Origin: Patescibacteria group bacterium
GTDB lineage: Bacteria; Patescibacteriota; Patescibacteriia; Veblenbacterales; UBA10138
NCBI GenBank assembly: GCA_018817715.1
Contig: JAHITT010000001.1
Location: 1-34,689 of the forward strand
Direction of reading: 5' to 3'
Length of the DNA stretch: 34,689 bases
Shown: positions 29,843-33,349 of the stretch, piece by piece
How positions within the stretch are numbered: position 1 is the first letter of the stretch
How the letters are laid out: each line of letters opens with the position of its first letter
Position numbers and translations under genes: made by a program
The notes under the pieces: generated by a model
Database searches by the model: none
The model's input: only the letters and a program-made list of their open reading frames with translations
Told to the model about the DNA's origin: nothing

Positions 29843-30820
29843 TCAAAAACCCAAATACTTTATTTCCTCTTTTAATTGATAGCCAAATTTATCACGCACC
29901 TGCTGTTTAATATAAGAAATCATCATTATTACCTGTTCAGCTGTACCTTGGCCTAAATTAAGCAAATAATTAGCGTGCTCTTCGGAAATTTTAATATCCC
30001 CCATAGTTTTACCTTTTAAACCAGCTTGATCAATTAACCAAGCCGCCGGCAATTGCTGGCCACCTTGTTTAATAAAATCTTCTATCTCTGAGTTGTTAGG
30101 AAATTTACTTCTTAATTCAGCTGGATTTTCTATAACCAAATTAGTAAAAATACAACCAGAAGACGGTTTATTATAAGGTTGATTTTGTCTGGCTTTAATA
30201 TAAGTAGCCATTAATTCCCGACTTTGAGCACTAACACCGGGGTTTAATTTTAAATTAACCGATAAAATAACATCCTCATTAGTCTTAAAAAGGGATTGCC
30301 GATAAGAAAAGTTACAAGCTTCTTTAGTTAAAGTAATAATTTTATCCTGTCGCAAAACAGTTACGCTATTAACCCAGTCGCCCATAAATCCCTGCTTAAT
30401 CTTAGGTAACCCCGCGTTACCATAAATTGCCCCACCCACTGTACCGGGCACACCAACTAAAGGTTCTAAACCAGTTAAACCAGCCGCCACAATTTGCTGC
30501 ACTAGCCAAGCTAAATTAACACCCGCTTCGGCCACTACTGAACAATCGGTAATCTTTAATTGATTGGTTTTAATTTTTATAACCAAACCATCTAAACCAC
30601 CATCTGATACTAAAACATTAGAACCCAAACCTAAATAAAATGTTTTAACATTTAATTCATTGGCTACTTGTACAGCTTTTATTAAGTCGGCCGTATTCAA
30701 AGCAGTAAAAAAATATTTAGCCGGACCACCAATTTTAAAATTAGTATGATTTTTTAAAGGTTCCTCTGCTAAAACCGGCCCTATTTGATTATTATTAAAT
30801 TCTGTAATTATATCGGCCAT
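29843..30820 (-). CDS. murB: UDP-N-acetylenolpyruvoylglucosamine reductase MurB
   Basis: 325 aa. FAD-binding blocks KNHTNFKIGGPAKYF (23-37), FYLGLGSNVLVSDGGLDGLV (61-80) and GLEPLVGVPGTVGGAIYGNA (117-136), then NFSYRQSLFK and KPSSGCIFTNL (218-228). The proton-donating residue of MurB, usually Ser in a GS(V/F)F motif, is C223 here. A C-terminal Glu (E318 or E319 in LKEEIKYLG) fits the second acid. It reduces the enolpyruvyl group to make UDP-MurNAc for peptidoglycan. The gene is separated from murC by a 1.1-kb non-coding region. Two small hairpins (around 30837-30860 and 30868-30884) lie in its leader. Confidence 0.95.
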   Translation of the reverse strand: MADIITEFNNNQIGPVLAEEPLKNHTNFKIGGPAKYFFTALNTADLIKAVQVANELNVKTFYLGLGSNVLVSDGGLDGLVIKIKTNQLKITDCSVVAEAGVNLAWLVQQIVAAGLTGLEPLVGVPGTVGGAIYGNAGLPKIKQGFMGDWVNSVTVLRQDKIITLTKEACNFSYRQSLFKTNEDVILSVNLKLNPGVSAQSRELMATYIKARQNQPYNKPSSGCIFTNLVIENPAELRSKFPNNSEIEDFIKQGGQQLPAAWLIDQAGLKGKTMGDIKISEEHANYLLNLGQGTAEQVIMMISYIKQQVRDKFGYQLKEEIKYLGF

Positions 30821-30998: not shown

Positions 30999-31027
30999 TT
31001 GACAAAAATCCTGCTTGGGTGTATGAT
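30999..31027 (+). promoter_or_regulatory. Consensus promoter of the candidate non-coding RNA
   Basis: TTGACA (30999-31004), a 17-nt spacer and TATGAT (31022-31027). It faces the gene-free region and no protein gene follows on that strand to the end of the window. Confidence 0.75.
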
Positions 31028-31033
31028 AAATAG

Positions 31034-31612
31034 TTAAAAATTAAATATATTAAGTTTTAATTGGGTCGTGCTTGTCCCTTAATTAAAACAGCTTACCAAA
31101 GGATGTTTACCTTGGTACCGAATTTACAGGCACAAATTTGTCTTGTTACCTTAAACAGTCACGCCGGTTATACAAAGGATCTTAAGACAATCAGTAATGT
31201 TTGAACTGACGGTATCTAGGCAAACATCTTTTTTAATAGCCACCTTAAAAACAAGTGGCTAAGACAAAAAAATTATTTAAAATATTCCTCAGAGTCCTAA
31301 TGCCGTAGGACTCATCAACACACCTAATTGGGAGAAAATAACATTCTTTCTCCCTCCCACCCTAGCTGCGGATAATTTATCAGCCGTTTAGGTGGGAACT
31401 TTAAAAAAATATTTTTTCTAAGTTAACTTGGAGGGGAGAATAATTAATTGTGCTGGTCTGTTTAGCTGGTGTTAACTAGCTCTTACCAGAAGTCAATTAA
31501 TTCGAAACAGTGGCTTTCGAGCCAAAACTGTTTCACCTGTTCTCCTCCAGATTAATTTAGAAAACACTACACTTCTTAAAAACACTCTTATAAATTAAGA
31601 GTGTTTTTAAAT
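31034..31612 (+). ncRNA. Candidate structured non-coding RNA, about 575 nt
   Basis: Bounded by the promoter at 30999-31027 and a perfect terminator hairpin at 31578-31608. Stems that can be read directly: 31054-31062/31081-31089 (9 bp, plus GGG/CCC inside); 31098-31108/31222-31232 (11 bp closing stem of a 135-nt branched domain, followed by more T); 31238-31243/31255-31260; 31292-31299/31306-31313 (8 bp); 31330-31337/31347-31354 (8 bp); 31356-31361/31391-31396. A three-way junction at 31430-31548 is closed by GGAGGGGAGAA/TTCTCCTCC, with arms AATTAATTG/CAATTAATT and GAAACAGT/ACTGTTTC; the latter continues as GGCT-TTCG-AGCC. G-U pairs favour plus-strand RNA. I see no RNase P, tmRNA, SRP or 6S signatures. 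Whether it is one transcript or two (a T-run follows the stem at 31228) is open. Confidence 0.55.
31578..31608 (+). terminator. Perfect 13-bp terminator hairpin of the candidate RNA
   Basis: AAAAACACTCTTA, a 5-nt loop and TAAGAGTGTTTTT, ending in a T-run. Because of the A-run on its other side it may also stop minus-strand transcripts coming from murC. Confidence 0.85.
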
Positions 31613-31643: not shown

Positions 31644-31778
31644 TTGCCACCATATTTAAGCCCTGGTAACAGAGCGGAAGTTGCCTGACAGATAAGCCAA
31701 GGCGTGTTTGTGGTAGATTCGGCATAGCCTGGGCCTATCAGGCAACGAGCACTGTAGCGACTTAAATTCTGGTGGCGA
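31644..31778 (+). ncRNA. Second candidate structured RNA, about 135 nt
   Basis: TTGCCACCA (31644-31652) pairs with TGGTGGCGA (31770-31778), and ATTTAAG (31654-31660) with CTTAAAT (31761-31767), giving a 16-bp closing stem. Inside, GTTGCCTGA (31680-31688) pairs perfectly with TCAGGCAAC (31738-31746), and ACAG/CTGT flanks it. The apical part is GC-rich with further short pairings (AGGC/GCCT). Followed by perfect hairpins at 31786-31808 (10 bp) and 31839-31859 (9 bp). The one G-U pair in the closing stem favours plus-strand RNA. No promoter of its own is evident, so it may come from read-through. Family unknown. Confidence 0.45.
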
Positions 31779-31939
31779 CTCTTGTATTACTTCTCTTAGA
31801 GAAGTAATGGAGTACTAAATATCTTAATATATAATTAACCCTTTCTTTAAAAGAAGGGGGGTGTAAAGAAGTACCATTAGAGTCCCAAGCTTGGGCTTCT
31901 GCTCGTTAAAAGCAATTAAATAAATTATTCTCTCAAAAC

Positions 31940-33349
31940 CTAAAACTCATTCCCAGTTATAAGTCCAAACTTTTTAATCAATTCCTCCCCCACTCGCCAA
32001 ACATCACCCGCACCCATAGTAATCAAAAGATCATTGCGTTTTAAATCAGCTGATAAATATTCCACCACACTCTCCACTGTTGGCTGATGCACCACATTTT
32101 TATGATGCTCTTTTGTTTCCTCCACCAAATCCAAAGAAGATATACTACCGACTTTCTCACGAGCTGAAGCATAAATATCCAAAATAATAACCTGATCCGC
32201 CTCTTTAAAAGAATTGGCAAATTCCTTAAACAAAGCCTTAGTTCGGCTAAAAGTATGAGGATGAAAAACCACTCGAATATTTTTATAAGGATAAAAAGCC
32301 CGAGCGGCTTTTAAAGTCGCAGTTATAGCCGCTGGATGATGAGCATAATCATCTACAATAGTTAAACCGTTGGTCAACTTACCTTTAATATCAAAACGTC
32401 TGGCCGTACCTTCAAAACTTAATAAGGCCCGCTGAATAACATCCACCTCTATACCTAAGCGCCGGGCGGCCGCAATAGCCGCCATAGCGTTAGCTACGTT
32501 ATGCCCGCCAATTAATCGAAAAGAAAACACACCTAAATATTCTTGCCCCTCATTCAAAGAAAAATGCCAACGACCTTCCTCTAACCACATTCTAACCATT
32601 TTCCAATAACCATTTTTTAAACCATAAGTGATAATTTGTTCCGGCTTTAAACCAGCCTCGGCCACCGCTCGTTTAACATTATTATCATCATAACAAGCTA
32701 CCAACCAACCATCAGGCGGAAGTTTTTTTAAAAATTCCACAAAAGCCTGATAGTAAGACTCGGCATCCGGGAAAAAATCCGGATGATCCCAATCAATACC
32801 AGTTAAAATAGCGGCCTCGGGCATAAACTGATGAAATTTATTTTGGTATTCATCAGCTTCAAAAATAAACCAATCACCATCGCCCACTAAAGCATTACCT
32901 TGCCAATTCTTAACCATAGAACCTACCAAGGCCGTAGGTCGCCATTCAGCTTCTTTTAAAATATGAGCCAGCAAAGCGCTAATAGTGGTTTTGCCGTGAC
33001 TACCAGTTACAGCCAAACCTCGTTTGGTTTTAGTAAGCTCGGCTAAAACTTCAGCGTAAGTATAAGTTGGTAAATTTTTTTTAAGAGCAGCGGCCACTTC
33101 TTCTTGTTCCGGACCATAAGCGCTGGAACGCATAACAAAATCAATTGGTTCGGCCAAATGCTTGGCGGAAAAACCTTCATGACACTTAAGACCGGCTCGA
33201 ACTAATACCTCATCGGTAATAAATTTTTCCGTGGTATCACTACCCCAAACTTCTTTACCCAGACCTTTTAAAATTTGAGCTAAACCAATCATACCAACAC
33301 CTTTTAAACCAATGCAGTATATTCGATTAGCTTTATCCAAAAAAGACAT
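31940..33349 (-). CDS. murC: UDP-N-acetylmuramate--L-alanine ligase MurC
   Basis: 469 aa. N-terminal UDP-binding IYCIGLKGVGMIGLAQILKG (10-29), ATP loop VTGSHGKTTISALLAHIL (114-131), FIFEADEYQNKF, the ILTGIDWDHPDFF block, the central motif LIGGHNVANAMAAIAAARRL, and C-terminal TIVDDYAHHPAAITATLKAA. Adds L-alanine to UDP-MurNAc. MurC rather than Mpl, because the length and motifs fit and it lies directly behind murG (21 nt). Downstream lies the gene-free region. Confidence 0.96.
   Translation of the reverse strand: MSFLDKANRIYCIGLKGVGMIGLAQILKGLGKEVWGSDTTEKFITDEVLVRAGLKCHEGFSAKHLAEPIDFVMRSSAYGPEQEEVAAALKKNLPTYTYAEVLAELTKTKRGLAVTGSHGKTTISALLAHILKEAEWRPTALVGSMVKNWQGNALVGDGDWFIFEADEYQNKFHQFMPEAAILTGIDWDHPDFFPDAESYYQAFVEFLKKLPPDGWLVACYDDNNVKRAVAEAGLKPEQIITYGLKNGYWKMVRMWLEEGRWHFSLNEGQEYLGVFSFRLIGGHNVANAMAAIAAARRLGIEVDVIQRALLSFEGTARRFDIKGKLTNGLTIVDDYAHHPAAITATLKAARAFYPYKNIRVVFHPHTFSRTKALFKEFANSFKEADQVIILDIYASAREKVGSISSLDLVEETKEHHKNVVHQPTVESVVEYLSADLKRNDLLITMGAGDVWRVGEELIKKFGLITGNEF

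Follow-up and report, generated by a model that had tools for sequence, protein, structure and literature searches.

A large structured RNA gene between murB and murC in a Patescibacteria genome and the very probably new three-way-junction RNA family within it

Judged by its sequence, the segment 30999-31608 of the window (the whole stretch of 34,689 nucleotides that was analysed) is a real plus-strand gene for a large folded non-coding RNA, situated between murB and murC. The initial annotation of this DNA had weighed an undescribed RNA class of the CPR bacteria against a very divergent known one; the former option is borne out, except that the RNA is modular and holds at least two conserved modules rather than one class. 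The module close to its 3' end, designated module B, forms a three-way junction and is, with high confidence, a previously undescribed RNA family. Most of its occurrences fall within a single class of Patescibacteria, and in the family of the window's genome (Ca. Veblenbacteria of the Parcubacteria group, eight genomes) it is multi-copy. As to what module B is for, we give about even chances to the reading that the new family is a small transcription unit of the rRNA type, which yields a free-standing RNA and serves as an mRNA leader as well. The features of the locus are collected in Table 1.

Table 1. Features of the murB-murC region (window positions; P1-P3, helices of module B)
Feature	Position	Strand	Evidence
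murB	29843-30820	minus	Pfam-confirmed flank of the gap
Sigma-70-type promoter, TTGACA-17-TATGAT	30999-31027	plus	11/12 consensus bases; kept in the family
Inferred transcript, large structured non-coding RNA (modules A, C and B)	31028-31608, start approximate	plus	Fold z-score, ORF scan
Module A	31062-31234	plus	Homologous in 6/8 family genomes, the window's included
Module A, GUGCUUG element	31068-31074	plus	Invariant
Module A, 20-bp long-range stem	31101-31120 with 31210-31228	plus	Covariation
Module A, U-run	31229-31234	plus	U-run after the stem in all six sequences
Hairpin GCCAC...GTGGC	31238-31262	plus	MFE and centroid fold
Perfect 8-bp hairpin, GAGTCCTA...TAGGACTC	31293-31314	plus	MFE and centroid fold
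Module C, two neighbouring hairpins (GGGAGAAA...TTTCTCCC; TCCCACC...GGTGGGA)	31328-31399	plus	MFE and centroid fold
boxA-like sequence GAACTTTAAAAA	31396-31407	plus	9/12 matches to GTTCTTTAACAA
Module B, three-way-junction RNA	31408-31570	plus	Covariation, covariance models R1 and R2
Module B, P1	31414-31438 paired with 31540-31564	plus	Covariation
Module B, P2	31442-31502	plus	Covariation
Module B, P3 (UUCG loop, AAA bulge)	31504-31534	plus	Covariation
Intrinsic terminator, perfect 13-bp stem, U-run within the 3' arm	31578-31608	plus	Sequence, fold
Element D, separate dispersed repeat adjoining murC, outside the RNA	31644-31910		Further genome and family copies
murC	31940-33349	minus	Pfam-confirmed flank of the gap

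The initial annotation had described a gene-free stretch that opens with a consensus plus-strand promoter, closes with a perfect terminator and encodes a large structured RNA in between. Both ends are as described, and the orthologous promoter is present in the murB gaps of 7/7 family relatives; promoter-like matches are not unusual in this AT-rich stretch. The arms of the terminator are AAAAACACTCTTA (31578-31590) and TAAGAGTGTTTTT (31596-31608), and a simple terminator scan overlooked it because the T-run sits within the stem. The RNA itself is also upheld, with both flanking genes confirmed: promoter and terminator enclose approximately 550 nt of strongly folded RNA, positions 31030-31615 fold at -185.2 kcal/mol against -115.3 +/- 5.7 kcal/mol for 100 dinucleotide shuffles (z = -12.4), and an ORF scan found no reading frame longer than 47 amino acids within the folded stretch. 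The plus strand, favoured at that stage by compensating G-U pairs, now has a stronger argument on its side, as the family model scores 114.9 bits on the plus strand and 35.9 bits on the minus strand. The extent of the gene-free stretch is what needed correction: it really ends at 31939 and holds, beyond the RNA, a second and separate repeat, element D. A copy of the promoter, 84% identical to the promoter region of the window, lies on the minus strand of locus L038 (approximately 1001-1055; G000:C6:271386-271440, G000 being the window's genome), where it precedes a small predicted membrane protein without any module B, which means that this type of promoter is not restricted to the RNA.

Element D is a highly conserved, hairpin-rich sequence of approximately 270 bp (CTGCCACCATATTTAAG...GGTGGCGACTCTTG...CGCCGCTAGAGTCCTCGCTTGG), and the copy in the window is without the 3' end. 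Two further copies in the same genome, at L036 392-665 and at L037 715-1111 (both minus strand, the latter with an insertion of approximately 100 bp), are located just 3' of apparent pyrG and pyrH genes. Many copies also exist in the family, several of them beside module B units.

Nothing in the window matches a known RNA class. A scan of both strands against Rfam 15 gave no match at the gathering threshold, and hits with E values up to 10 were at chance level only; the homologues that were scanned gave no Rfam match either, and no description of this RNA was seen in the titles and abstracts of the open-access papers returned by literature searches. The absence of RNase P RNA and tmRNA cores from this locus, already noticed at the outset, is consistent with the presence of both RNAs elsewhere in the genome: RNase P RNA (RF00010) at G000:C6:52687-53078 with 236.7 bits, its model having no match in the RNA described here, and tmRNA (RF00023) at G000:C6:268781-269166 with 90.6 bits, ARAGORN having found no tmRNA in the window. 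The 6S and small SRP RNA models (RF00013 and RF00169) do not match this RNA.

Covariation in module B is strong. When nine diverged copies were folded independently, all gave one common junction, in which P1 is a long basal helix with a near-invariant GGAGG/CCUCC inside and covarying pairs on either side, P2 terminates in GGU-NNNN-ACU, whose G-U pair is constant in 21/21 sequences, and P3 bears a UUCG-type loop plus an AAA bulge; some copies have one additional arm. In the window, positions 31424-31560 fold into the three-way junction with the UUCG tetraloop that the initial annotation had drawn (-50 kcal/mol, z = -5.8). The copies of G001 and G002 were excluded from the nine in the first model, their arms having been misaligned by MAFFT, and in the first seven sequences 23 of the 45 pairs show double changes. 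With 21 sequences, 34 of the 45 pairs are changed on both sides (177 double-changed cells), 94% of the cells are paired, and the covariation score reaches 0.588 against 0.09-0.15 for slid partners and 0.24 after shuffling, in an alignment that was fitted to the model and is hence biased towards it. RNAalifold returned a nearly identical structure from the same 21 rows, and the homologues collected from the murB flanks of relatives covary strongly. The genome of the window has a second copy of module B with 89% identity (BLAST against its own genome). Compared without gaps, these two copies, neither of which is followed by an ORF, differ in P3 by three compensatory double substitutions that lie next to each other. 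Such a pattern suggests that the RNA as such is under selection, provided that the ORFs were not lost only recently. Module B is contained in no known RNA family, and discoveries of this kind, namely orphan RNAs from comparative genomics, have many precedents.

Module A, in the 5' part of the RNA, is single-copy and restricted to the murB locus. Its long-range stem is paired in 94% of cases, 8 of its 20 pairs have changes on both sides, and it scores 0.417 against no more than 0.137 when the partners are slid. The GUGCUUG element could form a pseudoknot with a CAAGCAC within the loop, as the complementary letters suggest; no double changes at this pairing occur among the module A sequences. 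Hairpin pairs resembling module C were found by eye between modules A and B in G002, G003 and G007.

Compared by BLAST with its relatives, the whole gap yields almost exclusively short fragments, and its homology is detectable solely via murB synteny and structure models. The three-way junction matched the end of a contig in one genome of the same family, and since this contig continues to an opposite-strand murB, the position of the RNA is the same there. A search with the murB protein recovered the orthologous gaps from all seven other family genomes, and each contains a TTGACA-17-TAnnnT promoter divergent from murB and then module B, which is accordingly divergent from murB in 8/8 family genomes. 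Module B is specific neither to this locus nor to the window's genome. Model R2 finds it in 8/8 genomes of the family (mostly two to five copies, one in G001) and in approximately 21 of the 373 class genomes outside the family, and in a phylum sample of 380 genomes it occurs in the window's genome, in two class members and, marginally, in one genome outside the class; with 7-20 candidates scored per genome, these copy numbers and this spread are lower bounds. Other orthologous places are near gyrA (three), prfB (two) and uppS (two contigs of G003). In five further families (f54, f13, f27, f31 and f24), module B lies downstream of one common gene, which is a DUF4012 gene in three of them and a homologue in the rest (E value of 1e-25 or better), and genes for HrcA or MurJ flank the other side in some of these copies. 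It should be mentioned that class-wide matches of 30-40 bits barely exceed the antisense of a long hairpin (approximately 36 bits) and rest chiefly on synteny plus the common P2 and P1 motifs.

Is module B a free-standing RNA or a leader? In family f54 its copies are without an ORF, a promoter and a terminator are visible in most, and these ORF-less copies still covary (18 pairs with double changes). Both copies of the window's genome and one on contig C22 of G004 likewise have no ORF and run into a terminator. In the relatives, module B mostly sits 5' of an ORF, unlike the copy in the window: in the majority of the 22 family copies that were inspected, a ribosome-binding site and a small ORF follow 16-130 nt downstream, so that module B is not, as a rule, purely free-standing in this family. 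From their sequences, these ORFs are predicted to be small orphans, mostly membrane or exported proteins. A strongly hydrophobic segment is found in 17 of 21 predicted first ORFs (other families included) as compared with 15 of 32 genes of the window (Fisher p = 0.02), and none of 10 downstream proteins tested reaches the Pfam cut-off, with no shared family and no ligand theme among them. In G003, G004 and G007 the murB-murC gap (L071, L072 and L075) holds a small conserved operon for a multi-pass protein of approximately 115 amino acids and a lipoprotein of approximately 160 amino acids, each preceded by a structured RNA element of its own; the window's genome lacks both ORFs. At four f54 loci (L092, L094, L133 and L131), another conserved RNA with a long hairpin, AAAGGCTGCCGAT...ATCGGCAGCCTTT, and GAGCCC arms lies downstream of stand-alone module B; it has no significant Rfam match and is a candidate for an unrecognised 6S-like or other RNA.

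Immediately 5' of P1 there is a sequence resembling boxA (GTTCTTTAACAA), which agrees at no fewer than 9 of its 12 positions in 18 of 22 family copies as against 9% of shuffles, boxA being a short AT-rich motif sought here in AT-rich DNA. The match in the window is weak (9/12; p = 0.10 taken alone, not significant), and in several copies outside the family it is weak or absent. Within the family, the boxA-like sequence stands directly upstream of the bracketing helix, as in a unit of the rrn type, and the promoter region of the copies is nearly invariant. The 16S leaders carry sequences of the same type (GTACATTAACAA in G004 and GTTCTTTAATAA in G006). In enterobacterial rRNA, boxA lies 18-19 nt ahead of the 5' strand of the leader-trailer helix, which bears an RNase III site (PMC10250234). 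From the boxA-like sequence, the layout of the helix and these rrn precedents, we infer by analogy an rRNA-like route of production for module B.

On this route the strong promoter would start the transcript, the boxA-like sequence would load NusB/S10 and the antitermination complex, and the 5' strand of P1 would pair with its distant 3' strand in the manner of a leader and a trailer. RNase III may then trim P1, so that the compact core with the three-way junction is set free. For the window and certain other lineages, the transcript would stop at the terminator and act as a free-standing molecule, while in most other family copies the unit would be a 5' leader that gives the small orphan ORF a strong, protected and uniform 5' end. 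We further consider it possible, although less than probable, that this is a stable, class-restricted RNA of the Patescibacteria whose production follows an rRNA-like pathway with boxA antitermination and a helix of the leader-trailer type, that it works in trans, either as a structured RNA or as an RNP, and that the Veblenbacteria have adopted it as the standard 5' leader for a set of fast-evolving small envelope and exported proteins.

A contender of somewhat lower probability holds that module B works mainly in cis, as a 5' leader by which mRNAs for small envelope or exported proteins are stabilised, insulated or regulated; on this view the two ORF-less copies next to which the window's genome has no cistron would be remnants left after its loss. 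The predominance of downstream ORFs in the family and their hydrophobic segments fit this explanation, as does the murB locus of the relatives, where module A, module B and a third hairpin each stand ahead of a cistron. On the contrary, the copies in f54, in the window's genome and on C22 of G004 have no cistron and ORF-less copies retain compensatory changes, the downstream proteins have no family in common, unlike a regulon of one function, and neither a terminator nor a switch masking the Shine-Dalgarno sequence is visible 3' of module B. Regulation could also take the form of a ligand-sensing riboswitch, with module A resembling an attenuator and module B hiding or releasing a downstream Shine-Dalgarno sequence via CCUCC, and this we regard as unlikely. 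The U-run (U4-U6) directly after the stem of module A in all six sequences, the invariant GUGCUUG and the near-invariant GGAGG/CCUCC of P1 could be read in this way, whereas the loop of the module A stem (40-120 nt or more) is atypical of a terminator, the pseudoknot partner has no double-change support, and the downstream genes have no metabolic theme. The masking of a Shine-Dalgarno sequence by CCUCC was dropped because the motif persists in copies that no ORF follows.

A further rival explanation is that module B is a mobile DNA element, MITE-like and with an outward promoter, whose palindromes merely resemble RNA structure. There are indeed several copies per genome, near-identical pairs exist in G003 (C24/C44) and G006 (C12/C2), P1 forms a long inverted repeat, and the repetitive element D is nearby. 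Nevertheless, this is very improbable, as module B occupies orthologous murB, gyrA, prfB and DUF4012 loci across genera or families, its G-U pairs and its loop and bulge motifs are conserved, the model score is strongly strand-asymmetric, and the orientation relative to the promoter is constant within the family; no match was found in phages and plasmids, nor any exact-pattern match to the module B motif in viral contigs. That one of the known housekeeping RNAs (RNase P, tmRNA, SRP or 6S) is present here in divergent form is hardly credible. In its favour, the Rfam models of 6S and small SRP RNA find nothing in four nearly complete genomes (G000, G006, G078 and G106), from which both are either lacking or, having diverged too far or escaped a first look, were not recognised. 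It is opposed by the RNase P RNA and tmRNA found elsewhere, by the lack of any Rfam match, by up to five copies of module B per genome together with none found in most genomes of the class (7-20 candidates scored in each), and by a structure with neither the central bubble of 6S RNA nor the S-domain motif of SRP RNA.

CPR bacteria have tiny genomes, and to our knowledge few regulatory RNAs have been described in them. An RNA that is kept in several copies at orthologous places across genera, in genomes of approximately 0.7-1 Mb, must be useful. A covariance model is now ready for the annotation of many genomes, and it draws attention to a set of orphan proteins, membrane-bound or exported, that have a promoter and leader in common and may be relevant to an episymbiotic way of life. 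Should the boxA link hold, antitermination and processing of the rRNA type would extend to a non-ribosomal RNA.

Several large orphan RNAs of bacteria, namely OLE, ROOL, GOLLD and raiA, are large and highly structured, have their own promoter and are of unknown function. The RNA of the window resembles them in its size, structure and promoter, and differs in having no Rfam match at the gathering threshold, a smaller core and other host taxa. Candidate structured RNAs have been obtained by comparative genomics (e.g., PMC2864571); the evidence is of the same kind, intergenic covariation, whereas the RNA described here is not in Rfam 15. The rrn leader shares with module B a strong promoter, a boxA-like sequence and, after approximately 10-30 nt, a long helix that brackets an RNA core, but in module B this core is a three-way junction of approximately 100 nt, multi-copy, often followed by an ORF and without any Rfam rRNA match. 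boxA is also found in mRNA leaders such as that of suhB, in which the Nus complex represses translation (PMC5725501). Module B is like the suhB leader in that a boxA-like sequence stands in the 5' UTR ahead of protein genes, and unlike it in what follows the sequence here, namely a large RNA with covarying pairs and a variety of orphan ORFs.
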